From positions 868,001 through 932,000 of the forward strand of contig NZ_CP076019.1 in the NCBI RefSeq assembly GCF_018623055.1: a DNA stretch of 64,000 nucleotides, given 5' to 3'. Numbering within the stretch: position 1 is the stretch's first letter; each line of letters starts with the position of its first letter. The notes under the pieces are model-generated. The model saw nothing but the letters and a program-made list of their open reading frames with translations, did not search any database and had not been told where the DNA came from. Made by a program: the position numbers and the translations under genes. The stretch comes from Halorubrum sp. 2020YC2 (GTDB lineage Archaea > Halobacteriota > Halobacteria > Halobacteriales > Haloferacaceae). This document shows, piece after piece, positions 4,713-52,615 of this stretch.

Positions 4713-4722
4713 TATTTTAGCT

Positions 4723-5976: not shown

Positions 5977-6010
5977 ACTGCTGAGCTGTCGCTATCGAGT
6001 CGAAGAGGAC

Positions 6011-6926: not shown

Positions 6927-6927
6927 A

Positions 6928-6959
6928 ATCAACAATGTGCTACACAAGAGCGTAACTAT
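6928..6959. repeat. right inverted repeat and right target duplication (ACTAT) of the IS
   Basis: Right terminal inverted repeat at 6928-6954, followed by the second ACTAT copy at 6955-6959. The next bases continue the interrupted acyltransferase frame. Confidence 0.85.
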
Positions 6960-8434: not shown

Positions 8435-8545
8435 GCTCGGGCAGAACCACGCCTCGGATAAGTATATCGTGGATTTGCGGACTGAATCGGTGGAGTAAAG
8501 GATTCCATTGGCCCATTGGAGATACGTGGAGCTGTCGTTAGCGAC

Positions 8546-9997: not shown

Positions 9998-10178
9998 CGA
10001 ATACACGGGATTTCACGAAATCGTGACCGTCATATCGTCGGTCAATTCCGCCTCAAGAGACACACAAGCCGAAGATCAGAACGCGGAACACGGTCGCTCG
10101 CTACCGGCCCCGCTACCGTGACGGGAACCGGTCTGTCCGGTAACAAAGTATTTCCCACCCCACCGGTATCGCCTACTT

Positions 10179-21757: not shown

Positions 21758-21880
21758 ATGAAAACCGATCTCTGGACGACCGCAGGCGGCGCGCGCGTCG
21801 AACGGGCGCCGGTTCCCGCGGAACGCGAGGCAGTCCCCGCGACCGACGCGACCGACGCGGCCGCCGGGGTGGTCGCGTAA
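21758..21880 (+). CDS. 40-aa leader ORF of glmS
   Basis: ATG at 21758, 27 nt after the CATAACAA box, begins MKTDLWTTAGGARVERAP; the frame ends in TAA at 21878-21880, overlapping the glmS ATG by one base (TAATG). The second half is Ala/Thr/Asp-rich without recognised motifs. It probably serves to load ribosomes for reinitiation on glmS. Translation is inferred from the position and overlap only. Confidence 0.5.
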   Translation: MKTDLWTTAGGARVERAPVPAEREAVPATDATDAAAGVVA

Positions 21881-23694
21881 TGTGCGGCATCGTGGCGCGG
21901 ATAGGCGAGGGCGACGACGCGGTGGACGAACTCCTCGCCGGCCTGACCAACCTCGAGTACCGCGGCTACGACTCGGCCGGCATCGCCGTCCAGAACGGCT
22001 GCGGCGTCGGTGTCCGCAAGCGCGCGGGCGGGATCGACGACCTGCGGAACGCGCTCGCGACGGACGGTCCGAGCGGGTCGGTCGGGATCGGTCACACGCG
22101 CTGGAGCACCCACGGGCCGCCGACGGACGCCAACGCGCACCCGCACACGGACTGCGACGGCGACGTCGCGGTCGTCCACAACGGGATCATCGAGAACTAC
22201 GACGAACTCCGCCGGACCCTCTCGAAGGCGGGTCACGCCTTCGAGAGCGACACGGATACCGAGGTCATCCCCCACCTGATCGAGTCGGCGCTGGCGGACG
22301 GGGCGTCCCCGGCCGCGGCGTTCCGCGCGGCCGTCGACCGGATCGAGGGGAGCTACGCCGTCGCGGCCGTCATCGGCGGCCGGGAGGCGGTGTACGCGGC
22401 CCGCAACGACTCGCCGCTGGTGGTCGGTGAAGGCGAGTCGGCCCAGTACCTCGGCAGCGACGTCCCGGCGTTCTTGGAGTTCACCGAGCGCGTGGCCTAC
22501 CTCGAGGACGGCGACGTCGTCCGGGTCACTCCGGGCGGGTTCACGGTCACCGACGCGGACGGGGAGCGCGTCCAGCGGACGACCGAGACCGTCGACTGGG
22601 ACCCCCAAGACACCGGGAAAGGGGGGTACGACCATTACATGCTCAAGGAGATCAACGAGCAGCCGACCGCCCTCGGGCGGTCCGTCAGCGGCCGGACCGA
22701 CCCGGACGCCGGCGCCATCGACTTAGACGGGTTCCCGCCCGGGACGTTCGAGGGGATCGAACGGGTCCACTTGGTCGCGATGGGGACGTCGTACCACGCG
22801 GCGATGTACGCCGAGTCGCTGCTGGCGCGCCGGGACGTCCCGGCGCGCGCGTTCATGGCCTCCGAGTACGCGATGTCCCCGCCCCCCGAGGAGGACGGGA
22901 CGCTCGTGATAGCCATCTCGCAGAGCGGCGAGACCGCGGACACGATAGGGGCCGTCAGGGCGGCCCGCGCCGAGCGGACGATGGTGGTGACGAACGTCGT
23001 CGGGTCGTCGCTGACGCGGGAGTGCGACGACACGCTGTTAGTCCGCGCCGGCCCGGAGATCGGCGTGGCCGCGACGAAGTCCTTCTCCTCGCAGGTGGCG
23101 ACGCTGTCGCTGCTGGCCGAGCGGATCCGCCGGGACGTGGTCGGCTCGCCGTCGCCGGACTCGCGGGCGTTCCTCTCGGCGCTCTCGGACCTCCCCGACC
23201 ACGTCCGACGGGTCGTCGAGGGCACCGCGGCCGAGGAGGTCGCCGACGCGTTCACCGACTCCGAGGCGTACTTCTTCATCGGGCGGGGGCCGGGTCACGC
23301 GGTCGCCTTGGAGGGGGCGTTGAAGTTCAAGGAGATCACCTACGAGCACGCCGAGGGGTTCACCGCCGCCGAACTGAAACACGGACCGCTCGCGCTCGTC
23401 ACGGAGGACACGCCGGTGTTCGCGGTGTTCAACGGCAGCGAGGGGGACACCGAGACGCTCGGAAACGTCAAGGAGATCCGAGCGCGCGGGGGACCGGTGA
23501 TCGCCGTCGCGAGCGGGGACGCCCCAGACCTCGGGGACGCGGTCGACCGCGTGCTGCCGGTCCCCGCCACCCACCCGGACCTCGTGGGCGTCCTCGCGAA
23601 CGTCCAGCTCCAGCTCGTCGCGTACCACGCCGCGAAGCGCCGCGGCCGGTCCATCGACAAGCCGCGCAACCTCGCCAAAAGCGTCACCGTCTGA
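21880..23694 (+). CDS. glmS: glutamine-fructose-6-phosphate aminotransferase (isomerizing)
   Basis: A 604-aa GlmS. It must start at 21880 because the Cys after Met (MCGIVARIG) is the N-terminal nucleophile of the glutaminase domain; the in-frame ATG at 21748 would bury it. Glutaminase motifs GHTRWSTHG and HNGIIENYDELR are followed by two SIS sugar-isomerase domains (AISQSGETADT, FIGRGPGHAVALEGALKFKE, AEGFTAAELKHGP) and the typical end NLAKSVTV. It makes glucosamine-6-phosphate, feeding glmM and glmU at 12.5-15.1 kb. Confidence 0.95.
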   Translation: MCGIVARIGEGDDAVDELLAGLTNLEYRGYDSAGIAVQNGCGVGVRKRAGGIDDLRNALATDGPSGSVGIGHTRWSTHGPPTDANAHPHTDCDGDVAVVHNGIIENYDELRRTLSKAGHAFESDTDTEVIPHLIESALADGASPAAAFRAAVDRIEGSYAVAAVIGGREAVYAARNDSPLVVGEGESAQYLGSDVPAFLEFTERVAYLEDGDVVRVTPGGFTVTDADGERVQRTTETVDWDPQDTGKGGYDHYMLKEINEQPTALGRSVSGRTDPDAGAIDLDGFPPGTFEGIERVHLVAMGTSYHAAMYAESLLARRDVPARAFMASEYAMSPPPEEDGTLVIAISQSGETADTIGAVRAARAERTMVVTNVVGSSLTRECDDTLLVRAGPEIGVAATKSFSSQVATLSLLAERIRRDVVGSPSPDSRAFLSALSDLPDHVRRVVEGTAAEEVADAFTDSEAYFFIGRGPGHAVALEGALKFKEITYEHAEGFTAAELKHGPLALVTEDTPVFAVFNGSEGDTETLGNVKEIRARGGPVIAVASGDAPDLGDAVDRVLPVPATHPDLVGVLANVQLQLVAYHAAKRRGRSIDKPRNLAKSVTV

Positions 23695-23735: not shown

Positions 23736-24734
23736 TCAGTCGTTCCGGTCGTCGCCCGCTCGCCCCGCGGCCCGCTCCCTCGACGTCGGGCTCGCGGTCC
23801 GCCGGTCCGCGAGCGACTCGTACGCCCGTCGGACCCGTCGAACGCCCTTCCAGACCGGACTCCCGCCGAGCGACAGCGCCAGGTAGAGCCACGTCCGCCC
23901 CCGCTCCGGCTCGTGCCGGAGCGAGCGCGCCAGCCACCGGCGCGCCTCGCCGTACCGCCCGTTCTCCATCGCGGTCGCGCCGAGCTTCCGCGAGAGCGAC
24001 GCGACGAGCGCGCGCTCGCAGCCGGGACCGTACTCGGCGGCCAACCCCCGGTGCGTCTCGAGGAACCGCGGATAGGCGACGTCGCGGGCGGCCTCGAAGT
24101 CGTCGGTAAGCTGGTCGTACTCCCCGAACCCGCGCCGGACGAGCTCCTCGCGGACCGGCCGGAACTCCCCGCGCTTCGAGAGCCGGACGTACCACTCGCG
24201 GTCCTCCCAGATCGGGAGCGCCTCGTCGAACCCCCCGGCGGCGTCGACCGCCGTCCGCCGCGCCATGACCGTCGAGGTGGGACCGCAGGCCGCCCCGCGG
24301 AGGAGCTCCTCGGTCACGTCGCCGGACAGCGACGGGGTCCGCCCCCCGACGCGCTCGCCGTCCCGCACCGCGAACTGCCCGGTGTAGACGGCGGCGACGC
24401 CCGGCTCGAACGCGGCCACCTGCCGCTCGGCCTTCTCGGGAAGCCACCTGTCGTCGTCGTCGAGGAACGCCACGAACTCCCCGCTCGCGGCGCGGATACC
24501 GACGTTTCGGGCGGCGCCCGGTCCCTCGCCCTCGTCGCGGCGATACGTGACCGGGCGGTCCCCGGCGCAGCGGCGCACCAGCGGCTCGACCGACGACTCG
24601 GAGCCGTCGACGACGACGAGTTCGAGGTGCGGGTACGTCTGTTCTCTGAGGCTGGCGAGCGCGCCCTCCAGCTTGGCCGGCCGGTCGCGGGTTATCACGA
24701 CCGCGCTGACGAGCGGCCGGTCCGGTGTCTCCAT
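23736..24734 (-). CDS. GT2 family glycosyltransferase
   Basis: A 332-aa GT-A fold transferase: SAVVITRDRPAKLEGALASL, VVVDGSE, GPGAARNVGI and the DxD-type FLDDDDRWLPEKAE. An acidic acceptor-site segment IWEDREWYVRL follows. The C-terminal part (about residues 235-300) is rich in Arg/Ala helices with a TPR-like LGATAMENGRYGEARRWLARS, seen in some EPS transferases. The protein is cytoplasmic. It diverges from the flippase gene, and both have TAACAA-type promoters. Confidence 0.86.
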   Translation of the reverse strand: METPDRPLVSAVVITRDRPAKLEGALASLREQTYPHLELVVVDGSESSVEPLVRRCAGDRPVTYRRDEGEGPGAARNVGIRAASGEFVAFLDDDDRWLPEKAERQVAAFEPGVAAVYTGQFAVRDGERVGGRTPSLSGDVTEELLRGAACGPTSTVMARRTAVDAAGGFDEALPIWEDREWYVRLSKRGEFRPVREELVRRGFGEYDQLTDDFEAARDVAYPRFLETHRGLAAEYGPGCERALVASLSRKLGATAMENGRYGEARRWLARSLRHEPERGRTWLYLALSLGGSPVWKGVRRVRRAYESLADRRTASPTSRERAAGRAGDDRND

Positions 24735-24988: not shown

Positions 24989-26494
24989 ATGTCACCGCTC
25001 TCCTCACTCCGACGGCTTCTCACTCGCCTCACGCCCGGCGGCGACCTCACCGAGCGATCGGTGAAAAGCGGTATCTGGGCCACGATAACGAACATCCTCG
25101 ACCGCGGGCTGCAGCTGCTGATGGTCGCCATCCTCGCCCGGATGCTCACCCCGGCCGACTTCGGGCTGCTCGGGATCGCCCTGCTGACGCTGTCGGCGTT
25201 CAAGCGGTTCTCGAACATCGGCTTCGATCAGGCGCTCATCCAGAAGGGGTCCGGAAACGTCGACAGCTACCTCAACACCTACTGGAGCATCGAGATACTC
25301 CGGGGGCTCCTGCTCGCCGGACTGCTCCTGCTCGTCGCGCCCCTCGTCGCCGGCTTCTTCGACGAGCCGCGCGCCACCCCGATCCTCCGGGTCATCGCGC
25401 TCACGCCGCTGCTCCTCGGGCTCCGCAACCCCGGTATCGTCTACTTCAGGAAGGACCTCGAGTTCGACAAGCAGTTCGTCTACACGATGAGCGGCTCGGT
25501 GACGAACTTCGTCGTCGCGCTCGCCGTCGCGCTCGCGACCCAGTCCGTCTGGGCGCTCGTGTTGGGGTACGTCTCCTCGGACGCCGCCCGGCTGCTGGCG
25601 TCGTACGCCATTCACGACTACCGCCCCCGACCCGGGTTCGACCTCGAGGTCGCCAAGGACCTGTTCGGCTTCGGGAAGTGGATCACCGGCTCCGAGAGCG
25701 TCTACTTCCTCATCAATCAGGGGGACGACGCCGTCATCGGCTGGGTGCTGTCCGCGACGTCGCTCGGCCTGTATCAGGTCGCCTATCAGTTCGCCAAGGC
25801 GCCGGCGACGGAGATATCACAGATCATTTCGAGCGTCGCCTTCCCGGCGTACTCCCAGCTCCAAGACGACATCCCGGCGCTCAGGACGGCCTTTTTCCGG
25901 ACGCTACAGGTGACGATGGTGATCTCCTTTCCCGCCTCCGTCGGCATCGCGGTCGTCGCCCCGACTTTCGTCGAGGCCGTCCTCGGCCCGGGCTGGGGGC
26001 CGGTGGTGCCGGTGATGCAGATCGTCGCGGTGTACGGGCTGCTCATCGCGCTGGGGTCGGCGTACTCGCCGGTGTGGAAGGCGCTCGGCCGCCCCGACTA
26101 CATGGCGAAGCTGGGCGTCTTCCGGCTCGTGTTGACCGCGCTGATCATCATTCCGGTCACCCGCGAGTTCGGGATCGTCGGGACCGCGGCGGCCGTGCTC
26201 GGCGTCTATATTTTCCCGGTGATGCCGATCGACGTGTACCTCGTGATCAGGTCGGTCGAGACGAGCCTCGGCCGGCTGCTCCGCGAGATATCCTACCCGG
26301 CCGTCGCGAGCCTCCTCATGGGCGGGGTCGTCTACTGGCTGCAGTCGACGCTGACGCTCCCGTGGGCGCTCCTCGAACTGGCCGTCCTCGTCGCCGTCGG
26401 CGCCGCGGTGTACGGGGCCGCGGTCGCGGCGCTCGAACTCGGGCTGAACTGGGACCTGCGCGAGACGCTCCGGAACTTCGCCGGGGCGATCTGA
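24989..26494 (+). CDS. polysaccharide flippase (Wzx/TuaB-like, MOP superfamily)
   Basis: A 501-aa integral membrane protein with about 12-14 hydrophobic segments. The family motif ATITNILDRGLQLLMVAILARM then LTPADFGLLGIALLTL (quoted in parts) and GFDQALIQK identify the Polysacc_synt_3/WzxC-TuaB branch, distinct from the flippase at 8546. It probably exports an undecaprenyl- or dolichol-linked repeat unit of the acidic polymer implied by the neighbouring lyase and beta-helix genes. Confidence 0.88.
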   Translation: MSPLSSLRRLLTRLTPGGDLTERSVKSGIWATITNILDRGLQLLMVAILARMLTPADFGLLGIALLTLSAFKRFSNIGFDQALIQKGSGNVDSYLNTYWSIEILRGLLLAGLLLLVAPLVAGFFDEPRATPILRVIALTPLLLGLRNPGIVYFRKDLEFDKQFVYTMSGSVTNFVVALAVALATQSVWALVLGYVSSDAARLLASYAIHDYRPRPGFDLEVAKDLFGFGKWITGSESVYFLINQGDDAVIGWVLSATSLGLYQVAYQFAKAPATEISQIISSVAFPAYSQLQDDIPALRTAFFRTLQVTMVISFPASVGIAVVAPTFVEAVLGPGWGPVVPVMQIVAVYGLLIALGSAYSPVWKALGRPDYMAKLGVFRLVLTALIIIPVTREFGIVGTAAAVLGVYIFPVMPIDVYLVIRSVETSLGRLLREISYPAVASLLMGGVVYWLQSTLTLPWALLELAVLVAVGAAVYGAAVAALELGLNWDLRETLRNFAGAI

Positions 26495-26509
26495 CCCCCC
26501 GGAGGGCGC

Positions 26510-26527
26510 GTAAGCGATCGATAACAA
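26510..26527 (+). promoter_or_regulatory. GTA-N7-GATAACAA promoter element of the FG-GAP gene
   Basis: GTA at 26510-26512 and GATAACAA at 26520-26527. The last base is exactly 27 nt before the ATG at 26554. Confidence 0.6.
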
Positions 26528-26553
26528 TGCCGCCCAGCCGCCAGGTGGGACCC

Positions 26554-27726
26554 ATGCAGACACAGCGACTCCGCTTTCGCCATGAGGTCGTCGACACCTC
26601 CCCGCCCACGACCAAGCTCGGGATCTGCCTGACGACGGACCTCACGGGCAACGGCCGCCCGGACGTCGTCGTCGGCGGCGCGGGCCCGGAGACGAAGCTG
26701 TTCGTCGGCGGCGGCCGGACGCGGCTCCCGAGCGTCGAGGGGATCAGACAGGCGACCGGGCTGGCGGGACCGACGCTGTTCTGGTACGAGAACCCCGGCT
26801 GGGAGCGACACGCCATCTCCAGCGTCCCGCAGCTCGGCGTCGGCTGCGCGCTCGGCGACGTCGACGGCGACGGCCGGGTCGACGTGCTCGCCGGGCAGGG
26901 GATCCACAACAGCGGCGTCTTCTGGTTCGAGCAGCCGGCCGACCCGCGGTCGACGTGGGACCGTCACCTGGTGACGGACCGGTTCGAGAAGTACCACGAC
27001 CTCGCCTTTGGCGACGTGGACGGCGACGGGGAGCCGGAGGTGGTGGGCCTCTCGCAGCGCTCGGAGACGGTGTTCTACTACGACGTGCCCGCGGACCCGA
27101 CGGACGGCCCGTGGCCGGCGGAGAACTGTCACGTCGTCGACGGCGACAGCCGCGCCGAGGGCGTGTGGATAGGCGACGTCGACGGCGACGGCCGGACGGA
27201 ACTGGTCGTCGGCGCGGCCCTCTACCGCCGCCGCGAGGGGACCCACGAGTGGGACCGCGAACCGATCGCGACCGACTGGGACGACGTGCGCGTGGCGGTC
27301 GGGGACGTCGACGGCGACGGCGAGTACGAGGTCGTGTTCGCGGAGGGTGACTCCCCCACCTACGGCACCCACCCCGGACGGGTCGGGGTGTTCGACCGCC
27401 GGGAGGACGGCTGGGCGGAGACCGTCATCGCGGACGACCTGTTCTGTCCGCACAGCCTCCAGCTGGCCGACTTCGACGGGAACGGGCGGCTCGACGTCTA
27501 CGCGGCGGAGATGAGCCTCGGGGAGAACGAGACCCCGCGACACTACCTGTTCAGGAATCAGGGGGACGGTCGGTTCGAGCGGACCGTCGTCGCGGAGGGG
27601 GTCGAGACCCACGAGGCGAAGGCGGTCGACCTCACCGGCACCGGCGTCCCCGACGTGGTCGGGAAGTCGTACACCCCCGACCACCACGTCGACGTCTGGC
27701 ACAACGAGGGAGACGCCGGCCCGTGA
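26554..27726 (+). CDS. FG-GAP/VCBS beta-propeller protein
   Basis: A 390-aa protein with at least five Ca-binding-type DxDxDG repeats: GDVDGDGRVDVLAG, GDVDGDGEPEVVGL, GDVDGDGRTELVVG, GDVDGDGEYEVVFA and ADFDGNGRLDVYAA. These make an integrin-like seven-blade propeller. No Sec or Tat signal is visible with the ATG at 26554, nor with the ATG at 26527, which overlaps the promoter box; this is odd for a family that is usually extracellular. It might bind or scaffold an acidic glycan through Ca2+. The start was chosen by the 27-nt promoter spacing. It is linked to the next gene by a 35-codon mini-ORF. Confidence 0.82.
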   Translation: MQTQRLRFRHEVVDTSPPTTKLGICLTTDLTGNGRPDVVVGGAGPETKLFVGGGRTRLPSVEGIRQATGLAGPTLFWYENPGWERHAISSVPQLGVGCALGDVDGDGRVDVLAGQGIHNSGVFWFEQPADPRSTWDRHLVTDRFEKYHDLAFGDVDGDGEPEVVGLSQRSETVFYYDVPADPTDGPWPAENCHVVDGDSRAEGVWIGDVDGDGRTELVVGAALYRRREGTHEWDREPIATDWDDVRVAVGDVDGDGEYEVVFAEGDSPTYGTHPGRVGVFDRREDGWAETVIADDLFCPHSLQLADFDGNGRLDVYAAEMSLGENETPRHYLFRNQGDGRFERTVVAEGVETHEAKAVDLTGTGVPDVVGKSYTPDHHVDVWHNEGDAGP

Positions 27727-27830
27727 CGCCCCGCCGGTCGAGCGGGCGCGCGGGACTGAGAGACCGGTCGACGGGACGACCGACGAGTCGACCGAGACGG
27801 CGGACTGGGCGCGCGGGGAACGGCGGGTGA
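27723..27830 (+). CDS. 35-aa linker mini-ORF between FG-GAP and lyase genes
   Basis: A GTG at 27723 overlaps the FG-GAP stop (GTGA); the frame has 35 sense codons, very rich in Arg, Gly, Thr and Ser. It stops at 27828-27830, overlapping the GTG of the lyase gene (GTGA). The double 4-nt overlap spans the entire 100-nt gap, so it fits a ribosome relay between two long genes. The peptide has no recognisable domain. Confidence 0.45.
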   Translation: MTPRRSSGRAGLRDRSTGRPTSRPRRRTGRAGNGG

Positions 27831-29077
27831 CCGACCGCGGCGCCGACGCGCCGCCCCCTCGGCGGGCGCCGCGGCGCCGCGACCTCCTGCGCGGGGGCGC
27901 GGCGCTCGGTGTCGCCGGGGTCCTCGCCGGCTGCGGCGACGGCTCGGAGCCGACCGACTCCGGGGCGCCGACGGAGACGCGAGACGACCCGGCCGTGTAC
28001 GCCGGGTTCCTCGACGGCAACGAGGTGGTCGCGATCCGCGACCGCGTCGACGACGAGGAGGAGCCGTGGCGCTCCGGGTACGACGCCCAGCTGCGCGACG
28101 CCGAGCGCGCGCTCGGCGCGACGCCGTCGAGCGTCGTCGACGATGGCGCGCCCGAGGGCGTCGACGAACACCGGTTCGCCACGGGCGAGGAGCGCCCCGA
28201 CTACGAGGCGGCGATAGAGACGGGCACGCGGGTCCGCGACCTCGGGATGGCGTACGTCTTCACGTCCGAGACCCGCTACGCCCGCGAGGCGATCGAACTG
28301 CTCGACCACTGGTTTCTCGCCCCCGACACGCGGATGTACCCCTCCGGCCGGAACTTCGGCGAGACGTACTTCTCCATCGAGCTTCACGTCACCCTCCCGA
28401 CGCTGTTGTACGGCGCGGCGCTCGTCCGCGACTCCCCCCGCTGGTCGGCGGTCGAGGCGGACCGGGAGGCGCTCCGCGAGTGGGTCGAGGCGTACCTGAC
28501 GGACCTCGAAGCGGGTCGGGGGAAAAAGCGGTACACCGGGACCGTGCGGAACAACATCTACGCCTGGTGGATCCTCGCTCGGGCGACCGCGGCGGCGTAC
28601 CTCGACGACCGCGACGCGCTGTCGCGCGCGTTCGACGACTGGCGCGAGCGCGCCCTCGACCAGATCGAGCCGAACGGCCTCCTGAAACACGAGCGACAGC
28701 GGGTAGACGGGCTGGAGTACTCGGTGTACGGCCTGAAGGCGCTGACGCTCACCGCGGAGATCGCGCGCCACTACGGCGTCGACCTCTACGGCCACCGGCT
28801 CCCGGGCGACGACGCGAGCGCGCTCCTGCGGGCCTTCGAGGGGCACCGCGAGTACGTCGTCGACGCGGGCGACTGGGAGTGGGGGACCGGCGAGAACGGC
28901 TACACCGAGGCGGACCGGACGGCGGCGGGGTCGGTGTACGAACTCGCGCACTCGCGGTGGGACCGCCCCGCGTTCCGGCGCGTCGTCGAGTCGATCGGGC
29001 GACCGCTGTACGAGCGCCGGGTCCTCGGCTGGACGACGCTGACGCACGCGAATCGCACCGAGCTCGACCTCGGCTGA
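27827..29077 (+). CDS. alginate-lyase-like (PL5-like) secreted lipoprotein
   Basis: A 416-aa protein. The N terminus has a twin-arginine signal with lipobox (RRRDLLRGGAALG..LAGC), so it is exported by Tat and lipid-anchored outside. The body is an alpha/alpha toroid resembling alginate lyase family PF05426: NFGETYFSIELH, RNNIYAWWILARA (compare the NNHSYW site of PL5), and NGLLKHERQR..GLEYSVYGLKAL. These match the order of active-site elements in PL5 mannuronate lyases, though the catalytic His is replaced (NNIYAWW). It might cut, trim or merely bind a uronate polymer during secretion, like AlgL in alginate systems. Confidence 0.75.
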   Translation: MTDRGADAPPPRRAPRRRDLLRGGAALGVAGVLAGCGDGSEPTDSGAPTETRDDPAVYAGFLDGNEVVAIRDRVDDEEEPWRSGYDAQLRDAERALGATPSSVVDDGAPEGVDEHRFATGEERPDYEAAIETGTRVRDLGMAYVFTSETRYAREAIELLDHWFLAPDTRMYPSGRNFGETYFSIELHVTLPTLLYGAALVRDSPRWSAVEADREALREWVEAYLTDLEAGRGKKRYTGTVRNNIYAWWILARATAAAYLDDRDALSRAFDDWRERALDQIEPNGLLKHERQRVDGLEYSVYGLKALTLTAEIARHYGVDLYGHRLPGDDASALLRAFEGHREYVVDAGDWEWGTGENGYTEADRTAAGSVYELAHSRWDRPAFRRVVESIGRPLYERRVLGWTTLTHANRTELDLG

Positions 29078-29161
29078 CGCCCGGCGTCGCGGCCGGTTCC
29101 TCTCCGACCGACGCCCGGCGTCCCGGCCGGTCCGGCCGACCGCTATCGACCGTTTATCGGA

Positions 29162-29179
29162 GTATGCCGGGCATAACAA
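29162..29179 (+). promoter_or_regulatory. GTA-N7-CATAACAA promoter element of the phosphodiesterase leader
   Basis: GTA at 29162-29164 and CATAACAA at 29172-29179. The last base is 28 nt before the leader ATG at 29207. The element overlaps the in-frame ATG at 29164, which argues that this ATG is not the true start of the phosphodiesterase. Confidence 0.6.
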
Positions 29180-29206
29180 ACCGGATCCCCCGCCAACCGG
29201 GACACA

Positions 29207-29248
29207 ATGATTCGGATCGAACCGCGTCGGCGGAGGCGGTTCCGGTGA
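29207..29248 (+). CDS. 13-aa leader ORF of the phosphodiesterase gene
   Basis: ATG at 29207 encodes MIRIEPRRRRRFR and stops at 29246-29248. The stop overlaps the GTG of the main gene at 29245 (GTGA). Its start is 28 nt after the promoter box. Confidence 0.5.
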   Translation: MIRIEPRRRRRFR

Positions 29249-30834
29249 CCGACGGCGACGGCCGCGCGTTCGTCCTCGGACTCGACGGCGTCCCGTGGCC
29301 GCTCGTCGAGCCCTGGATCGAGGGGGGAGAGCTCCCCGCGTTCGCCCGGCTGGTCGCGGAGGGGGCCTCCGGACCGCTCCGCAGCACGACGCCGGCGAAC
29401 ACGCCGGTCGCGTGGCCCTCCATCGCGACCGGCACTTGGCCCGACCGGCACGGCCTGTACGAGTTCATGCGGCTCGACGCCGACCACAGCCAGCGTCCGT
29501 ACAACCGCGAGGACCTCCGGCAACCCCCGCTGTGGGAGCTGCTCTCCCCCGCGGTCGTCGCGAACGTGCCGATGACGTACCCGGCCGGCGGCGTCGGTGA
29601 CGACGGGGCGATGGTCGCCGGGATGATGACGCCGTCGACCGACGCGGACGGGTTCACCGACCCGCCCGAACTGGGCGCGGAGATCCGCGACCGGATCCCC
29701 GACTACCGGGTCGGGCTCAAGTGGCACGAGTACAGCGAGGACCGCCGCGAGGAGTTCCGAGAGGACTTCGCGGCGCTGTTCGCGGCGCGTCGCGAGCTGT
29801 TAGCGTCGCTCATGGAGCGGGAGGCGTGGCGGCTGTTCTTCTTCACGTTCACGGCGCCGGACCGGCTCCAACACCTGATCTGGGACGATGACGTCATCCT
29901 CGACCACTACCGCGAGCTGGACGCCGTCCTCGCGGAGGTGATGGCGTACTGCGACCGGCTGGACGCGACGCTGTACGTCGTCTCCGACCACGGCTTCGGT
30001 CCCGTCTCCCGGATCGTCAACGTCAACCGGGCGCTGGCGGACGCCGGACTGCTGACGCCGAAGACGTCGACCGGCGTCCGGGCCGCGCTCTCCCGGGCCG
30101 GGGTGACGAAGTCGCGCGTCCTGCGCGGCTTAGCGCGGATCGGCGTCGACGACGAGACGCTCGTCGAGCGGCTCCCGGCGTCGGTCGTCGACAGCGTCGC
30201 CCGCGCGGTCCCCGGCGACCACGCCCTCTACGACGTGGACCCCGCGGAGACGCGGGCGTTCCTCCACGGGCTGGGCAGCGTGTACGTCAACGACACCGCT
30301 CGGTTCGACGACGGCGCCGTCGACCCCGCGGACGCGGACCGGGTCAAAGCCGAGGTGATCGACGCGCTCTCGGCGCTGACGGACCCCGAAACCGGTGAGC
30401 CGGTGCTGTCGGTACACGACGGCGACGAGCTGAATCCGGAGGACGAGTTCGCCCCCGACGTGGTCGTCGAGGGCGCCCCGGGGTACCACGTCAAGCCCGG
30501 GCTGGCGGACGACGCGGTCGTCGACGCCGACGGCATCGCCGGCTACCACCGGCCGGAGGGGGTGTTCTTCGCCCGCGGCCCCCCGATAGCGCCCGGGACC
30601 GCGGTCGAGGACGCCTCGGTCGTGGACGTGGCGCCGACGCTGCTCCACGCGCTGGGCGAGTCGGTCCCCGCGGCCGCGCATGGCCGGGTGTTGACCGAGG
30701 CGTTCGAGCCGGGGTCGCCGCCCGCGACCCGGGACGTGTCCAGGCGGGACCGCGGCGCGTCGGACGCGGCGACCGACGGACCGGGACGCGACGAGGCGGT
30801 CGAGGAGCGGCTCCGGGGACTCGGGTACCTATGA
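29245..30834 (+). CDS. type I phosphodiesterase / nucleotide pyrophosphatase-like protein
   Basis: A 529-aa alkaline-phosphatase-superfamily protein of the phosphodiesterase/pyrophosphatase branch: FVLGLDGVPW (metal Asp), TTPANTPVAWPSIATGTWP with the likely Thr nucleophile, FTAPDRLQHLIWDD and VVSDHGFGP. It ends EERLRGLGYL, the same kind of tail as the five sulfatase-like proteins at the left of the window. The GTG at 29245 is favoured over the ATG at 29164 by the leader ORF overlap and by the promoter position. It has no signal peptide. It may add or remove a phospho-linked group on the exported glycan; substrate unknown. The stop overlaps the next ATG. Confidence 0.82.
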   Translation: MTDGDGRAFVLGLDGVPWPLVEPWIEGGELPAFARLVAEGASGPLRSTTPANTPVAWPSIATGTWPDRHGLYEFMRLDADHSQRPYNREDLRQPPLWELLSPAVVANVPMTYPAGGVGDDGAMVAGMMTPSTDADGFTDPPELGAEIRDRIPDYRVGLKWHEYSEDRREEFREDFAALFAARRELLASLMEREAWRLFFFTFTAPDRLQHLIWDDDVILDHYRELDAVLAEVMAYCDRLDATLYVVSDHGFGPVSRIVNVNRALADAGLLTPKTSTGVRAALSRAGVTKSRVLRGLARIGVDDETLVERLPASVVDSVARAVPGDHALYDVDPAETRAFLHGLGSVYVNDTARFDDGAVDPADADRVKAEVIDALSALTDPETGEPVLSVHDGDELNPEDEFAPDVVVEGAPGYHVKPGLADDAVVDADGIAGYHRPEGVFFARGPPIAPGTAVEDASVVDVAPTLLHALGESVPAAAHGRVLTEAFEPGSPPATRDVSRRDRGASDAATDGPGRDEAVEERLRGLGYL

Positions 30835-32564
30835 ACCGCGAGTCGGACGGCTCCGAGAGCGCCCGCGGCAGGCGCTCCTATCTCGCGGCCCTCGGGGCCG
30901 CCGCGTCGCTGACCGGCTGTCTCGGCGGCGGCTCCACGGAACCGACGGGCGACTCCGCCGACCCGGGCGCCGACGAGAACGGAAACGGGACGGACGGCGA
31001 CGGGTCGGCGATCGAGTTCGACGAGGACCGGCTCGAGAGCCGCCACGGCATCGAGTTCGACCGGGTCCGCCACGCGGTCGACGACCTCGGGCTGGACCCG
31101 TCGGGGGAGGTCGCCGCGGAGGAGGACGTCGAGTCGGCGCTGTCGGAGGCCGGGACGCTGCTGGCGTTTCCGGAGGGAAGCTATCGGTTCGGCGGCACCG
31201 TCTCCCTCGACGCCGAGCGGGTCGGGGTGCTCGGACTTGGCGGCGTCGCGTTCGAGCCCGACTTCGGGTTCGACGGCCTGCTGTTCGACGGGCAGGGCGA
31301 GACCCTCGACGAGGTGCTCGTCGAGAACGTCGACGTCGATATCCGCGCGCCGGCCACGACGGCCGGGATCCGGATCAACTGCCGGAGCCGGTTCCACGTC
31401 GAGGGCGTCGAGTTCCTCGGCCGCGGGACGAACGGCTCTCCCGGCGGGACGACGAGCGCGTTCCTCCTCGCGATCCGCGACGAGGACGGCCGCGGCGTCC
31501 TGCGTGACGCGGTGGCGAAGAAGGGGTCGCGGATCGACGGCTACGAGGGCGGGAACGGCCGGATCGGCGTGTGGGTCGGCTGGTCGAACAAGGGGACGGT
31601 CCGAATCGAGGGGTGCGACTTCCGCGAGTTCGGCAACAACGGCGTCTACGGCTCTCGGACCCCCGGAAACGTCGAGATCGTCGACTGCTACTTCCTCAAC
31701 AACAACGTCTGCGGCCCGCGTATCGGCGGCGCGGGAAGCTACGTCGAGAACTGCACGGTCGAGATAGACGTCGACAGGTACACCGGCGGGGCGATCGATA
31801 CGACCACGGAGTTCAACACCCGCGCGATAGTCGTCGAGCAGGGCGTTCAGCGGCGGGGCGCCCCCGCGCTCCCCGCGGGGGCGGAGATCCGCGGCTGCAC
31901 GCTCCGCGCGCTCCGGTCGCCGCGCGCGCAGTCGGTGATAGAGCAGTCGCCGGTGGCGCGCAGCCTCGTCGTCCGCGACACGGCGATCCGGTGCGACGTC
32001 GACGGGACGCCGGCGGTGCGCCGCGGGCCGGTGGGGTCGCTGTCCTACCGGCCGGACCGACGGCGGCCGCCGCGCCCGCACTGGACCCGCCTGCGGAACG
32101 TCGCGATCGACGGGAGCGCGGCCGGCGGCGCCGCGGTCGACCTCCGCTCGGCGCCCGGGTCGCGGGTGACGGACTGCGAGGTCACCTGCCGCGGCGCGGA
32201 CCGTGACGGGGTCTACCTCGACCGGTCCCCACGGAGCGAGGTGACCGGGGGGACGATCCGAACGGACGGCCACCCGATCGTCGTCGCCGTCGACCCGGCG
32301 GCCTCGGCCGACGCCCTGCTGTGTCTCGGCGTCGAGACCGCCTTGGAACGGACCGGGGACGACGACGGCGGGATCGAACTCACCGCGGACCCGCCCCTGC
32401 TTCGGACCCTCGATCAGAGCGCCGGGTCAGACGGCGTCTGTCTCGGCCTCGGTCCCGGCGCGCCGACGCTCCCCGTCGTCGGGTCCCCCTCCGACTCGCT
32501 CCGGTTCAGCATCGACGCGCTGGAGGACGGGACCCCGCTCGGCCGCGTCCTCGACCGACCGTGA
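30831..32564 (+). CDS. right-handed beta-helix Tat lipoprotein
   Basis: A 577-aa protein with a Tat lipoprotein signal (RRSYLAALGAAASLTGC) followed by an acidic low-complexity linker. The body is a pectate-lyase-like parallel beta-helix with repeated short strands (GTVRIEGCDFREFGNNG, NVEIVDCYFLNNN, ENCTVEI). It is a close paralogue of the next gene; both share RHGIEFDRV..AVDDLG.DPSG and a near-identical GRIGVWVGWSNKG segment. Beta-helix proteins of this kind include polysaccharide lyases and C5-epimerases such as AlgG. Here an epimerase or glycan-binding role is inferred from the lyase neighbour, not proven. ATG overlaps the previous stop (ATGA). Confidence 0.8.
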   Translation: MNRESDGSESARGRRSYLAALGAAASLTGCLGGGSTEPTGDSADPGADENGNGTDGDGSAIEFDEDRLESRHGIEFDRVRHAVDDLGLDPSGEVAAEEDVESALSEAGTLLAFPEGSYRFGGTVSLDAERVGVLGLGGVAFEPDFGFDGLLFDGQGETLDEVLVENVDVDIRAPATTAGIRINCRSRFHVEGVEFLGRGTNGSPGGTTSAFLLAIRDEDGRGVLRDAVAKKGSRIDGYEGGNGRIGVWVGWSNKGTVRIEGCDFREFGNNGVYGSRTPGNVEIVDCYFLNNNVCGPRIGGAGSYVENCTVEIDVDRYTGGAIDTTTEFNTRAIVVEQGVQRRGAPALPAGAEIRGCTLRALRSPRAQSVIEQSPVARSLVVRDTAIRCDVDGTPAVRRGPVGSLSYRPDRRRPPRPHWTRLRNVAIDGSAAGGAAVDLRSAPGSRVTDCEVTCRGADRDGVYLDRSPRSEVTGGTIRTDGHPIVVAVDPAASADALLCLGVETALERTGDDDGGIELTADPPLLRTLDQSAGSDGVCLGLGPGAPTLPVVGSPSDSLRFSIDALEDGTPLGRVLDRP

Positions 32565-32843
32565 CGGAGACCCGATCGCGGCCGCCGATAGGGGGAACGC
32601 AGGGACCGCCACTTCTCGAACCGATCGACGGCGGGTTTCACCCGGTAGGAACTGCTTAATCGCCGGTACGACGCGTTTGACGGGTCGGTCCGAGTCGTGT
32701 CATTCGGTAGGCGTTTCCTACCGCCGGATGAACCGTGTTGTTAGGACCCAGGTAACAGCTGGTAACCAATCGGAACCATGCGCCCCTCATCCGGCCAGTT
32801 ACTGGCGAAAACGAATATGATGGTAACCTCGGAATACCCGAGT
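32565..32843. promoter_or_regulatory. intergenic region between the two beta-helix genes
   Basis: 279 bases with no convincing gene. A reverse-oriented CCTAACAA (32738-32745) points away from the downstream gene and precedes only a 15-codon frame (ATG at 32703). Just before the downstream gene, CGAATATGAT at 32812-32821 is a TATA candidate about 23-30 nt before the chosen ATG. Confidence 0.35.
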
Positions 32844-35810
32844 ATGTCCAAAGAACGGGCACCCGACGACAGCACAGTAGGAGAGGATTATAGGCGAGAA
32901 GCCGGAGTAGGGTCCGACTACGAGGACGGTGAGGCGGAAGAAGCGGACGAGAACGACGCGGCGGTCCGAGACGACGGGGACGACGCGGCGAGGCCGGCCG
33001 ACGCCCGAGACGGGCGGCTGCTCGACCGGCGCGGCTACCTGAAGATGGCCGGCGTCGCCGCGGCCGCGGTCGCCGCCGGCTCGACCGGCGCCGCCGGCGC
33101 CGAGGGGACGACGCGCCACGGGATCGAGTTCGATCGCGTGCTCGACGCGGTCGACGACCTGGGGATGGACCCGTCCGGAAACAGCGCGGTGAACGCCCGC
33201 CTCGAACACGCGCTCACGGAGGGGACGCTGGTGCGGTTCCCCGAGGGGGAGTACCTGTTCGACGGGGAGTTCGAGATAGACGCCGACCGCGTCGGCGTCC
33301 TCGGGGAGGGTGACGTGCGGTTCGTCCCCCGGACGGGCCACACGGGGTTCCTCTTCAACTACGACCCGGTGCCGGACGACGTGCTCATCGAGGGCGTCGA
33401 CGTCGACATGCGCGCCGACGACACGACGACCGGGATCCGACTGCGGTGCCGGAACCGGTTTCACATCGAGGACGTGGAGTTCCTCGGTCGCGGACTGATC
33501 GACAACTCCGGACAGGTCAGCGCCTTCCTGCTCGGGATCACGAGCGAGGACGGCCGCGGCGTCCTGCGTGACGCGGTGGCCAAGAAGGGGTCCCGCGTCG
33601 ACGGCTACGCGAGGGGGAACGGCCGGATCGGCGTGTGGGTCGGCTGGTCGAACAAGGGGACCGTCCGCATCGAGGGGTGTGACTTCCGCGAGTTCGGCAA
33701 CAACGGCACCTACTCCTCCCGGACGCCCGGGCAGGTGGAGATCGTCGACTGCTACTTCCTCAACAACAACGCCGCGAACGTGCGCATCGGCGGCGAGGGG
33801 AGCTACATAGAGAACTGTACGGTCGAGATCGACTTCGAGAAGTACACCGGACCGGAGCTCGGCGACATCTCGACCGGCTTCGGGATGCGCGGGGTCCAGA
33901 TCGAGCAGGGCGTTCAGCTCGAAGGGGCCGAGTCGATCCCGGCGGGCGCGGTGGTCCGCGACTGCGAACTGGTGGGGAAGAACGCGCCGAACGGGATCGC
34001 CATGCTCAACCTCTCGCCGCAGGGGCGGAGCCTCACCGTCGAGAACACCCGCGTCCGGGTCGACATCGACCGGATGTGGGCGGTCCGCCGCGGTCGACCC
34101 GGCACGATCTCCTGGCGCGAGTGGCAGCAGACGGCGCCGAAGCCGCACTGGATCCGGATGGAGAACGTCAGCGTCACCGGGTCGGCGTCCGGCCGGGAAG
34201 CGATCAAGCTCGTCGAGGCCGACGACTCGGTCGTCCGGAACTGCTGTATCCATCAGCCGGGGTCGAACCGCGACGGCGTCAAGTTCGAGGACGCGAGCGG
34301 CGGCGTCGTCGAGGACTCGACGATCGACGTGACCGGCAAGGAGATCACCTTGGAGAACTCGACGGCGACGAGCTCGTCGATAACCCGGGAGGGGTCGTGT
34401 CCGTTCCCGGACCCCGAGCCGGCGTCGACGGACGGCTCCGACGAGACGGACGACGCCGACCCGACCCGACCCGACGGCAGTCAGGAGCTGGTGATCGACG
34501 GCGGCCACACCGCCGACCGGATCAGCTACACGTTCGCGGTGGACGGGAGCGTCGCCCCCGGCCCGCGAGCGAACGCGAGCGACACGATAGACGGGACGAC
34601 CGTCTCCGGACACGTCGAGGGCGGGGTCGACTCCTTCTGGGTGAGCGGCGAGTTCACCGACTTCGAGGTCGACGGCGACGCCGAGGTCCGGCTGGCCGGC
34701 GAGGCGGTCGACCCCGCGGACCTGGTCGTCTCGGAGACGGACGACGGGACCGACGACGGCGGTTCGACGGACGAGACGGAGCTGGTGATCGACGGCGGCC
34801 ACACCGCCGACCGGATCAGCTACGCGTTCGCGGTGGACGGGAGCGTCGCTCCCGGTGACCGCGCCAACCCGGACGACACGATAGACGGGACGACCGTCAC
34901 CGGGCAGGTGGAGGGCGGGATCGACTCGTTCCTCGTGACGGGCGAGTTCACCGACTTCGAGGTCGACGGCGACGCCGAGATCCGGCTGGCCGGCGAGGCG
35001 GTCGACCCCGCGGACCTGGTCGTCTCGGAGACGGGCGACGGGACCGACGACGGTTCCTCGACCGAAAGCGAGACGCTCGTGATCGACGGGAGCGGCACCT
35101 ACGACCGCGTGAGCTACGCGTTCGAGGTGGACGGGAGCGTCGCGCCCGGCGACCGCGCGAACCCGGGCGACACGATAGACGGGACGACCGTCACCGGACA
35201 CGTCGAGGGCGGGATCGACTCCTTCGAGGTCGCGGGGGAGTTCACCGCGTTCGATATCGACGCCGACGTGCCGGTCCGACTGGGCGGCGAGACCGTCGAT
35301 CCCGACGACCTCGTCGTGACGACGCGCACCGTCGCGGTCGACGGGAGCCACACGAGCGAGCGCCTCGCGTACACGTTCGGGACGGACGGGACCGTCGCGC
35401 CCGCCGGCGACGTGACCGACGACGCGATCGACGGGTCGACCGCCGCCGGCAGCGTCGCGGGCGGCGTCGACGCCTACGAGGTCACGGGCGCGTTCACGAA
35501 CTTCCAGGTCGACGGCGACCTGGCCGTGCGGGTCGACGGCGAGCCCGTTGAGCCCGAGGCGCTCGGGACCGAACACGAACTGCCGCACGAGCTGGTGGTC
35601 GTCGGTGACGGCGCCGAGGCGAGCTACCTCGTCGAGACGACCGGCTCGGTCGCGAAGCGCGACGGCGGGTGGGGCGCGGAGGAGTCCGACGCCGCGGCCG
35701 ACGGGGTCGCCAGCGGTACGGTCGCGGACGACCGCGACACGTTCGGCTTCTCCGGGGACGTCACCCGGCTCCGGCTGGACGGCGACGCGTCGCTCAGCTT
35801 CCGGAGGTAG
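32844..35810 (+). CDS. right-handed beta-helix Tat-exported protein with C-terminal beta repeats
   Basis: A 988-aa protein. An unusually long acidic n-region (about 50 residues) precedes the Tat signal RRGYLKMAGVAAAAVAAGST. The beta-helix domain (about 70-520) is paralogous to the preceding gene. A Pro/Asp/Thr linker leads to five related repeats of about 85-90 residues: [ET]LVIDG..T.DRISYAFAVDGSVAP..DTIDGTTV.G.VEGG.DSF.V.GEFT.F.VDGDAE.RL.GE.VDP.DLVV, each ending in an acidic linker. The last two are diverged. The first three are nearly identical in DNA, suggesting recent amplification. The protein is secreted; the repeats may be carbohydrate- or cell-wall-binding modules. The ATG at 32844 was preferred over 32778 and 32820 because of the TATA spacing. 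Confidence 0.8.
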   Translation: MSKERAPDDSTVGEDYRREAGVGSDYEDGEAEEADENDAAVRDDGDDAARPADARDGRLLDRRGYLKMAGVAAAAVAAGSTGAAGAEGTTRHGIEFDRVLDAVDDLGMDPSGNSAVNARLEHALTEGTLVRFPEGEYLFDGEFEIDADRVGVLGEGDVRFVPRTGHTGFLFNYDPVPDDVLIEGVDVDMRADDTTTGIRLRCRNRFHIEDVEFLGRGLIDNSGQVSAFLLGITSEDGRGVLRDAVAKKGSRVDGYARGNGRIGVWVGWSNKGTVRIEGCDFREFGNNGTYSSRTPGQVEIVDCYFLNNNAANVRIGGEGSYIENCTVEIDFEKYTGPELGDISTGFGMRGVQIEQGVQLEGAESIPAGAVVRDCELVGKNAPNGIAMLNLSPQGRSLTVENTRVRVDIDRMWAVRRGRPGTISWREWQQTAPKPHWIRMENVSVTGSASGREAIKLVEADDSVVRNCCIHQPGSNRDGVKFEDASGGVVEDSTIDVTGKEITLENSTATSSSITREGSCPFPDPEPASTDGSDETDDADPTRPDGSQELVIDGGHTADRISYTFAVDGSVAPGPRANASDTIDGTTVSGHVEGGVDSFWVSGEFTDFEVDGDAEVRLAGEAVDPADLVVSETDDGTDDGGSTDETELVIDGGHTADRISYAFAVDGSVAPGDRANPDDTIDGTTVTGQVEGGIDSFLVTGEFTDFEVDGDAEIRLAGEAVDPADLVVSETGDGTDDGSSTESETLVIDGSGTYDRVSYAFEVDGSVAPGDRANPGDTIDGTTVTGHVEGGIDSFEVAGEFTAFDIDADVPVRLGGETVDPDDLVVTTRTVAVDGSHTSERLAYTFGTDGTVAPAGDVTDDAIDGSTAAGSVAGGVDAYEVTGAFTNFQVDGDLAVRVDGEPVEPEALGTEHELPHELVVVGDGAEASYLVETTGSVAKRDGGWGAEESDAAADGVASGTVADDRDTFGFSGDVTRLRLDGDASLSFRR
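34487..35330 (+). repeat. tandem coding repeats of about 280 bp
   Basis: Three near-identical copies begin with GCTGGTGATCGACGGCGGCC-like sequence at about 34487, 34782 and (more diverged) 35068. Each contains the same DTIDGTTV and GEFT coding blocks. Two further diverged copies follow to 35800. Confidence 0.75.
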
Positions 35811-37379: not shown

Positions 37380-38405
37380 CTACTCTGACCCCGCGGAGGC
37401 GCCCGTCTCCGTGGGCGACGCGACCTCCAGCAGTTGCCCGTAGGCCTTCGCGAGCGACGCGACGTAGCTCACGACGAGGAAGGCGAGCTTCTTGCGCGCG
37501 GGGAGGTCGTCCCACCCGCGGACCGAGCGCTCCATGAAGCTCGGCCGCGGGGGGAGGAACGCGGCGGGGTTGAGCGCGGCGAGGAGCGGCGACCCGTAGC
37601 GGTCGGGGTAGTACCGCCGGAGCTGGGTCTTCCCGCGCCCGACGCGCTTGGACTTCCGGAGGAGCGCGCCGAGCGTCGTCCGCGTCGGGTGGTACATGAC
37701 GACGTCCGCGGCGTATTCGAGAGACCGACCGCTCGCCGCGACGCGGTTCCCGAACTCCATGTCCCCGCCCGACCGGAGGCGCGGGTCGAACCCGCCGACC
37801 TCCGCGAGGAGCGACCGTCGGACCACCAGCGAACAGGTGGGCGCGAACGAGAGCTCGTCGACGAACCGCTCGACGTGGAGGTCGTTGCGGCGGTTGTACT
37901 CGGCGGCCAGCCCCTCGCCGCCGGCCGTGAACAGTTGGACGTCGCAGCCGACGTACTCGGCGTCCGTCCGCGACATTCGCCGCGCCACGCGCTCGACCCA
38001 GCCGGGGTCGACGACCATGTCGGCGTCGACGAAGGCGATCACCTCTCCCGTCGTCGCGGCAATGCCCGCGTTGCGCGCGGCGTATGAGCCCTGTACCTCG
38101 TCCTCGACGAGCAACTGGAGGCCGTCGAACGCCCCGAGGGACTCGCGGACGACGTCGCGCGTCTCGTCGGTCGACCCGTTGTCGACGACGATCACCTCGT
38201 ACCGGGCCGCGGGGAACGACTGCCTGCGAAGCGAGTCGAGCGTCGCCTCGATCCCCGCCGGGTCGTTGTACACGGGGATCACGACCGAGACGAACGGGAG
38301 CCCCTCGTCGCCCGCGGCGGCGGTGTTCCCCGCGTCGGCGGCGTCGGTAGCGTCCGCGTCGTCGGGGAGGGGATCGGGGGTCGACGTGGTCTGTTGGGGA
38401 GTCAC
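37380..38405 (-). CDS. GT2 family glycosyltransferase
   Basis: A 341-aa GT-A transferase: FVSVVIPVYNDPAGIEATL, VIVVDNGSTDETRDVV, GSYAARNAGI and VIAFVDADMVVDPGWV (DxD). The C terminus has a GGFDPRLRSGGDMEFGNRV acceptor segment and a weakly hydrophobic end. The ATG at 38432 lies inside the TATAACAA box, so the in-frame GTG at 38405, exactly 27 nt after the box, is preferred. The N-terminal 40 residues are Asp/Ala/Thr-rich and unlike the family. Confidence 0.85.
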   Translation of the reverse strand: MTPQQTTSTPDPLPDDADATDAADAGNTAAAGDEGLPFVSVVIPVYNDPAGIEATLDSLRRQSFPAARYEVIVVDNGSTDETRDVVRESLGAFDGLQLLVEDEVQGSYAARNAGIAATTGEVIAFVDADMVVDPGWVERVARRMSRTDAEYVGCDVQLFTAGGEGLAAEYNRRNDLHVERFVDELSFAPTCSLVVRRSLLAEVGGFDPRLRSGGDMEFGNRVAASGRSLEYAADVVMYHPTRTTLGALLRKSKRVGRGKTQLRRYYPDRYGSPLLAALNPAAFLPPRPSFMERSVRGWDDLPARKKLAFLVVSYVASLAKAYGQLLEVASPTETGASAGSE

Positions 38406-38431
38406 ACCGGAGGCGTCCGCGACGACGCACA

Positions 38432-38449
38432 TTGTTATAGGAGCCGTAC
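38432..38449 (-). promoter_or_regulatory. GTA-N7-TATAACAA promoter element of the GT2 gene
   Basis: Reverse strand: GTA (38449-38447), seven bases, TATAACAA (38439-38432), ending 27 nt before the GTG at 38405. Confidence 0.6.
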
Positions 38450-43322: not shown

Positions 43323-43943
43323 ATGGGAGACACACAGCGAAACGCCCCGGCGTCGACGGTCGCGGACGTCAGGCTCGGAGCCGGGTCGACGGTGAGCGAG
43401 CGCGCGACGCTCGGCTACGAGTACGCCGCCGACGCCGGCGCGACCGTCCTCGGCGCCGACGCGACGGTGCGCTCCGGATCGATAGTGTACGCGGACGTGC
43501 GGGCGGGCGACGGCTTCACGACCGGACACAACGTCCTCGTCAGGGAACGCACCGAACTGGGCGACGACGTCCTGGTCGGGACCAACACCGTCATCGACGG
43601 GGAGACGACGGTCGGCTCGAACGTTAGCCTCCAGAGCGGCGTCTACGTCCCGCAGGAGACGACTATCGGAGACGACGTGTTCGTCGGTCCCGGCGCGGTG
43701 CTGACGAACGACCCATACCCGGTCCGGCGGGACGCCGACCTGGACGGGCCCGCGCTCGGCGACTCCGTCTCCGTCGGCGCCAACGCGACGGTGCTGCCCG
43801 GCGTCTCGGTCGGGGAGCGGTCGTTCGTCGCCGCCGGCGCCGTCGTCACCGAGGACGTGCCGCCGGAGACGCTCGTCGCCGGCGTCCCCGCCGCGCCCCG
43901 CGACCTGCCGGAGCCGCTCGACGGCCCGAACTCGATAGCATGA
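43323..43943 (+). CDS. WbpD/WlbB-like UDP-amino-sugar N-acetyltransferase
   Basis: A 206-aa left-handed beta-helix acyltransferase with repeated hexapeptides: SIVYADVRAGDGFTTGHNVL, ELGDDVLVGTNTVIDGETTV, GDDVFVGPGAVLTNDPYPVR, VSVGANATVLPGVSVGERSF (quoted in parts), and GVPAAPRDLP at the end. Its place next to WbpE, WbpB and WbpA homologues points to acetylation of the 3-amino group of UDP-GlcNAc(3N)A. The ATG at 43323 was chosen over 43287, which overlaps the promoter box. Stop and next ATG overlap (ATGA). Confidence 0.85.
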   Translation: MGDTQRNAPASTVADVRLGAGSTVSERATLGYEYAADAGATVLGADATVRSGSIVYADVRAGDGFTTGHNVLVRERTELGDDVLVGTNTVIDGETTVGSNVSLQSGVYVPQETTIGDDVFVGPGAVLTNDPYPVRRDADLDGPALGDSVSVGANATVLPGVSVGERSFVAAGAVVTEDVPPETLVAGVPAAPRDLPEPLDGPNSIA

Positions 43944-49785: not shown

Positions 49786-49824
49786 CGCGGAAGCGCCGCG
49801 GTCGCGCCCGATTCCCTTGTTTTT
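49781..49824 (+). terminator. candidate stem-loop terminator of the operon
   Basis: GCGACCGCGG (49781-49790), loop AAGCG, CCGCGGTCGC (49796-49805), followed by GCCCGATTCCCTTGTTTTT. The 10-bp stem and T-rich tail lie between convergent genes. Confidence 0.5.
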
Positions 49825-52531: not shown

Positions 52532-52615
52532 GTGTTCGTCCACCAGCCCGTCCGGCCGGAGAGACCGCGGTCGGCCCGCGGACCGCGAGAGCGCGAACGG
52601 AGTTGTCCGGCGTGA
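52532..52615 (+). CDS. 27-aa leader ORF of the large membrane protein gene
   Basis: GTG at 52532, 27 nt after the promoter box, opens 27 codons (Arg/Pro-rich, starting VFVHQPVRPERP). TGA at 52613-52615 overlaps the GTG of the main gene at 52612 (GTGA). Confidence 0.5.
   Translation: MFVHQPVRPERPRSARGPRERERSCPA

Follow-up and report, generated by a model that had tools for sequence, protein, structure and literature searches.

In Halorubrum sp. 2020YC2, six plus-strand genes at positions 24989-35810 encode a flippase, an FG-GAP protein, a lipoprotein of the alginate lyase family, a type I phosphodiesterase and two beta-helix proteins, BH1 and BH2. We favour the reading, at a probability of roughly 55%, that they belong to a Wzx-type locus for a uronate-containing surface polysaccharide or exopolysaccharide of Halorubrum, with an optional secreted lyase that trims the cell's own polymer. 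This reading draws on a gene order conserved in six Halorubrum genomes, a lyase fold with invariant active-site residues and recognisable uronate precursors of the UDP-GlcA and UDP-HexNAc-uronate types. It also draws on Tyr-only elimination, which is established for syn substrates (PMC13169297, PMC4444821), and on a second lineage with a lyase near a polysaccharide cluster. Against an own-polymer role counts the dispensability of the lyase, as one close relative keeps the locus without it.

In this model, the conserved core comprises the flippase, the FG-GAP protein and the phosphodiesterase, both probably cytoplasmic, and two exported beta-helix proteins, one a lipoprotein and one with C-terminal repeats. 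In one Halorubrum group, the same gene string includes an exported (alpha/alpha)-toroid lyase, which most likely works on the outer side of the membrane and cuts, through beta-elimination, uronate-containing polymer made by the cell itself. Asn243 and Arg292 would neutralise the carboxylate and Tyr298 would serve as both base and acid. The elimination would be of the syn type, on a uronate of D configuration, for example GlcA or a ManNAc3NAcA-type sugar. The outcome would be polymer release, trimming or turnover, and the beta-helix pair may bind or modify the same polymer. A lyase kept in a polysaccharide export locus of several species offers a testable answer to what haloarchaeal lyase genes may do, namely self-polymer processing instead of feeding in at least one lineage. 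Our literature search returned no paper on this haloarchaeal gene module, which is not proof that none exists.

A conserved gene string with an accessory lyase

The host genome is a single contig of 3.06 Mb, of which we analysed a stretch of 64,000 nucleotides (the window). The genes that bear on the argument are:

11113..12435, +, UDP-glucose 6-dehydrogenase AglM, the UDP-GlcA source (NF041297, an equivalog model; 754.6 bits against a cut-off of 670)
21880..23694, +, upstream flank, probable GlmS-type glucosamine-6-phosphate synthase, family assigned from sequence (85-90% identity to its counterpart at the same position in relatives)
23736..24734, -, family 2 glycosyltransferase GT2a, transcribed away from the flippase gene (PF00535, 6e-25; position conserved)
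24989..26494, +, Wzx/TuaB-type polysaccharide flippase (Polysacc_synt_3, PF13440, 9e-85; TuaB-like NCBIfam match below cut-off)
26554..27726, +, FG-GAP beta-propeller protein without signal peptide (FG-GAP_3, PF13517, 1e-30)
27827..29077, +, Tat lipoprotein with the PL38/PL5 (alpha/alpha) toroid lyase fold (Alginate_lyase, PF05426, 2e-42, above cut-off)
29245..30834, +, type I phosphodiesterase / nucleotide pyrophosphatase family protein without signal peptide (PF01663, 1e-42)
30831..32564, +, BH1, right-handed parallel beta-helix, Tat lipoprotein (PF13229, 2e-7)
32778..35810, +, BH2, exported (Tat) beta-helix (PF13229, 1e-8; likely start 32844)
37380..38432, -, downstream flank, family 2 glycosyltransferase GT2b (71-82% identity to its counterpart at the same position in relatives)
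43323..49721, +, acetyltransferase, DegT aminotransferase, Gfo oxidoreductase, UDP-HexNAc dehydrogenase-like protein, GT2 and WecB (a WbpA/B/D/E/I-like set)

A first-pass annotation of this DNA had proposed these six proteins, encoded in one direction, with two exported beta-helix proteins. Pfam matches bear out all six names, including the PL5/PL38-type lipoprotein; all six genes lie on the plus strand, and both BH1 and BH2 carry Tat-type signals. The coupled starts that it had also described are found at only one of the five junctions, where the phosphodiesterase and BH1 genes overlap (ATGA); the remaining gaps measure ~60, 100, 167 and 213-279 bases. Among the six proteins, Tat-type export signals are confined to the lyase, BH1 and BH2, with a lipobox Cys in the lyase and BH1, and the BH2 C-terminus consists of tandem repeats of ~80 aa each. 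The FG-GAP protein and the phosphodiesterase have no signal peptide and start straight with their domains, which suggests that both are most likely cytoplasmic; on the same ground, we rejected export of all six proteins.

Translated searches recovered the whole series (GlmS, GT2, the six genes from flippase to BH2, GT2) in collinear order in five further Halorubrum genomes, so the gene order exceeds chance. Collinearity was judged within the fetched stretches and contigs, where split genes and contig ends formed the exceptions. Relatives carrying the same locus include Halorubrum coriense, H. sodomense, H. cibi and Halorubrum sp. CBA1125. Split genes occur in two of them (BH1 in H. coriense, many genes in CBA1125) and may reflect assembly error.

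Across 196 relative genomes, the lyase was found in 11, the FG-GAP protein in 41 and the beta-helix family in 89, all threshold-dependent counts, and phosphodiesterase homologues (E 1e-30 or better) in 108. In four genomes (G037, G158, G137 and G077), a span of 20 kb holds genes for the flippase, the FG-GAP protein, the phosphodiesterase and a beta-helix protein, but no lyase gene. Given these counts and loci, the flippase, FG-GAP protein, phosphodiesterase and beta-helix pair make up a haloarchaeal module that extends beyond the lyase, which is accessory to it. The difference between the lyase and beta-helix counts also led us to reject an obligatory partnership of the two. The first-pass annotation had named homologous loci in which these genes never occur together as a refutation, and the outcome is split: the two kinds of gene co-occur in the six Halorubrum genomes, but most haloarchaea have the beta-helix pair without the lyase, and Haloarcula has the lyase alone.

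The locus without a lyase in the close relative G037 has ~150 bases between its FG-GAP and phosphodiesterase genes, and a short stretch, CTCGACCTCGAGTGA, is similar to the lyase gene at its 3' end. A tree of flippase and phosphodiesterase groups G037 with the window species among the lyase-bearing genomes, at modest support values (74 and 80). The simplest, although unproven, reading is that G037 has lost the lyase. The G037 FG-GAP gene (L121, 12936-13999) is itself split over two frames.

In the second lineage (G158 and G137), the lyase is 56-58% identical to that of the window and also lies near a polysaccharide cluster; in G158 it adjoins a TrmB-type regulator, ~8-10 kb from a phosphodiesterase, a beta-helix and a flippase-like gene. 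A Haloarcula homologue stands alone amid unrelated genes, and bacterial homologues, in the gammaproteobacterial, Chloroflexi and planctomycete loci examined, are secreted, often longer, sometimes in tandem and encoded outside polysaccharide export loci. The family as a whole thus need not process self-made polymer. Among the bacterial relatives, tandem pairs occur (L148, L160, L161), several come from marine or vent MAGs, and many have C-terminal extensions. A plasmid origin of the lyase was not upheld, as only two distant Vibrio-group matches were found.

The stand-alone Haloarcula homologue, the tandem secreted bacterial ones and the optional presence in Halorubrum would also fit a catabolic enzyme that scavenges uronate polymers of other organisms and whose position in the locus is a historical accident. 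We consider this unlikely, as the gene is set between the FG-GAP and phosphodiesterase genes in all six genomes. Moreover, no GH88-type unsaturated glucuronyl hydrolase was found in the genome by a search that detects one in Haloferax volcanii, which speaks weakly against feeding on lyase products. Haloarchaea with lyase genes also failed to grow on alginate or pectin, and an unknown activity was proposed for these genes (PMC9726719); hyaluronate-feeding haloarchaea use a different family, PL8 (PMC13260240).

Predicted fold and active site of the lyase-like lipoprotein

The AlphaFold2 model of the lyase, based on 34 homologues (pLDDT 87.4, pTM 0.91), has the predicted (alpha/alpha) toroid fold of the PL38/PL5 family. 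Its nearest solved folds are 3nnb/3nfv, an alginate lyase of B. ovatus (Z 34.7), and BoPL38 (Z 34.4), followed by A1-III (Z ~30), AlgL (25.7), GAGase VII (25.5) and human dermatan sulfate epimerase (22.1). The mean dN/dS of the lyase gene across five species was 0.28 (0.14-0.39 for neighbouring genes), and this purifying selection supports a working protein.

In a sequence profile alignment, Asn243, Arg292 and Tyr298 pair with active-site residues of BoPL38 and 3nfv. In contrast, Ile244 pairs with the His of the NNH motif (H243 of BoPL38, H188 of GAGase III). In the comparison with AlgL suggested in the first-pass annotation, the toroid fold is shared and the catalytic His is missing. Within the close family, haloarchaeal proteins have Ile at position 244 and bacterial ones Phe, and none has His; distant members (L030, L171-L175) likewise do not have the His, but are poorly aligned there. 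Invariant in 34 homologues are Asn243, Trp247, Glu289, Arg292, Tyr298, Glu372 and His407, in a homologue scan that was partly biased because one of its two search patterns included the NI motif; the second pattern was free of it.

Alginate lyases of PL5, 15, 17, 38 and 39 retain the active-site His, and when the equivalent His of GAGase III was changed, alginate activity was lost and glycosaminoglycan cleavage only reduced (PMC12088678). BoPL38 employs Tyr298 as base when it eliminates syn on mannuronate and His243 when it eliminates anti on guluronate (PMC13169297); in M-specific lyases, too, the residue used is Tyr (PMC4444821). From the residues present, we therefore predict an enzyme that performs syn-elimination with Tyr, on a polymer of D-uronate that is not alginate, whereas the missing His could also mean a changed reaction or a protein that only binds.

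Such altered chemistry would suit an epimerase or a non-cleaving polymer binder, and human dermatan sulfate epimerase does share the fold. Likewise, AglQ of Haloferax volcanii, with Pfam matches that include alginate lyase and GH88, is needed for N-glycan assembly (PMC3827465). However, the nearest folds and sequences are those of lyases, Asn, Arg and Tyr are intact, and AglQ belongs to an N-glycan pathway, whereas the Halorubrum protein bears a Tat lipoprotein export signal. An epimerase or binder is, in our judgement, somewhat less probable even than a scavenging enzyme.

A more specific version of the own-polymer reading, which we hold only tentatively, is that the lyase and its haloarchaeal and bacterial relatives constitute an undescribed PL38/PL5 branch. 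Ile or Phe would take the place of the His, His407 and Glu372 would be catalytic, and the enzymes would have specificity for a uronate of D configuration, perhaps a diacetamido one; in Halorubrum, the lyase would mature the cell's own polymer with the beta-helix pair. If true, this would give archaeal polysaccharide lyases a biosynthetic role. The natural set of His-to-Ile/Phe proteins is useful for testing the function of the His in toroid lyases.

Beta-helix proteins, precursors and the alginate analogy

The paralogues BH1 and BH2 share ~53% identity along the helix. Identity rises to 85-90% in a central block (BH1 residues ~214-293; window positions 31470-31710 and ~33520-33760), where 81-91% of identical residues have identical codons, compared with mostly 36-82% elsewhere. 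This raised identity of both protein and synonymous codons suggests gene conversion between the central blocks.

With moderate confidence (pLDDT 70, pTM 0.78), BH1 is modelled as the right-handed parallel beta-helix of AlgG/AlgE. Its best fold matches are AlgE6 (Z 31.6, 339 residues, rmsd 3.1) and AlgE4 (31.3), followed by the Sf6 tailspike (29.2) and RbmB (28.2); with values so close, the BH1 fold alone cannot separate an epimerase from a lyase or a hydrolase. The His of the DPHD motif probably abstracts the proton in AlgG and AlgE (PMC4444821). This motif was absent from BH1, BH2 and all 43 beta-helix family members examined, in which no His column was conserved above 60%, so the comparison with the AlgG active site turned out negative. 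Tyr273, Asn290, Arg297, Asp313 and Arg331 are conserved polar positions of the family and possibly mark a site of another kind.

For the FG-GAP protein, DxDGDG-type sites were invariant in 12 homologues, identity across families was ~50% or more, and PHxxQ and HEAK motifs were conserved. Assignment to a named enzyme was rejected, as profile searches gave repeat-level matches only (lectins, integrins, CRTAC1, PL11 and aldos-2-ulose dehydratase). The phosphodiesterase had no phmmer match at 0.01 among solved structures.

The window was also said to supply UDP-glucuronate and diacetamido-uronate precursors, and genes for both are indeed present, AglM for UDP-GlcA and the set at 43323..49721, predicted to make a UDP-diacetamido-uronate. 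The genome has two nucleotide-sugar 6-dehydrogenases with PF03721 matches above cut-off: AglM and a UDP-ManNAc/HexNAc-dehydrogenase-like protein, whose specificity would be UDP-ManNAc/UDP-HexNAc-like. Neither best matches the GDP-mannose model, and no GDP-mannose-dehydrogenase-type (AlgD) enzyme was recognised in the genome. PF16822 (AlgX/AlgJ acetylation) gave no match, with control genomes silent too. The flippase together with glycosyltransferases and nucleotide-sugar genes makes up the features of a Wzx-type locus. A Wzx-type flippase points to a repeat-unit polysaccharide pathway, unlike the synthase pathway of alginate. Alginate is made through the Alg8/Alg44 polymerase complex (PMC4444821).

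These data bear on the earlier proposal of an archaeal counterpart of alginate maturation, that is, an AlgL-like lyase and AlgG-like C5-epimerases acting on a mannuronan-type polymer. What stood of it is the uronate-polysaccharide locus, in which lyase and beta-helix genes are near neighbours in six genomes, the AlgL/PL38-type fold and the AlgE-like beta-helix. In contrast, Ile for His, the absent DPHD, two dehydrogenases of which neither best matches a GDP-mannose model and a Wzx-type flippase indicate that this is not alginate assembly, and the beta-helix pair is widespread without the lyase. The analogy thus holds for folds and gene neighbourhood and fails for the tested catalytic and precursor features. 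We rejected a straight AlgL/AlgG identity on the His, the DPHD motif and the precursor genes, and regard a true counterpart as very improbable, the least likely of the readings weighed here.

Elsewhere in the window, a 688-aa protein (52612-54678, +) has no Pfam match; most of the examined polysaccharide loci hold a 30-35% identical homologue, which is often the neighbour of a GT4 gene. With the look of a membrane protein, it is a candidate polymerase (Wzy) or ligase. A 478-aa protein (49824-51260, -), which has no Pfam, NCBIfam or convincing PDB sequence match, has 33-52% identical homologues in many of the haloarchaeal polysaccharide loci examined. Positions 1-10000, where G+C drops from ~0.72 to 0.43-0.56, hold sulfatase-like paralogues (430-5708, 7514-8575), a GT61 gene and an IS1595-type transposase gene (6042-6926), and are likely an acquired island.

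Relation to known systems

The closest likeness is to the PL38-type enzymes of B. ovatus, BoPL38 and 3nfv/3nnb, with which the lyase shares the full-length fold (Z 34-35, 336-338 residues aligned) and the Asn, Arg and Tyr. Identity is 20-22%, and His243 and His297 of BoPL38 are Ile and Glu in the Halorubrum protein. The BoPL38 type sits in a utilisation locus, whereas the Halorubrum lyase, an archaeal Tat lipoprotein, is encoded among polysaccharide genes. AlgL of Pseudomonas (PL5) has in common with it the toroid fold, export and nearby polysaccharide export and beta-helix genes. Unlike the alginate operon, the Halorubrum system has a lyase without the catalytic His, no recognised GDP-mannose dehydrogenase and a flippase of the Wzx type.

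The AlgG/AlgE C5-epimerases share the right-handed beta-helix, AlgE6 and AlgE4 being the best BH1 matches, but at 15-16% identity and with neither DPHD nor a strongly conserved His in the Halorubrum proteins. RbmB of Vibrio cholerae, a lyase acting on Vibrio polysaccharide, has the BH1 fold as well and is encoded together with matrix polysaccharide genes. In contrast to this bacterial protein (11-12% identity in structural alignment), Halorubrum has two paralogues and, in addition, a toroid lyase. Finally, AglQ resembles the Halorubrum lyase as a toroid-type protein of a glycan assembly cluster related to GH88 and alginate lyase models; AglQ is closer to epimerases and GH88, whereas the Halorubrum lyase is exported and PL38-like.
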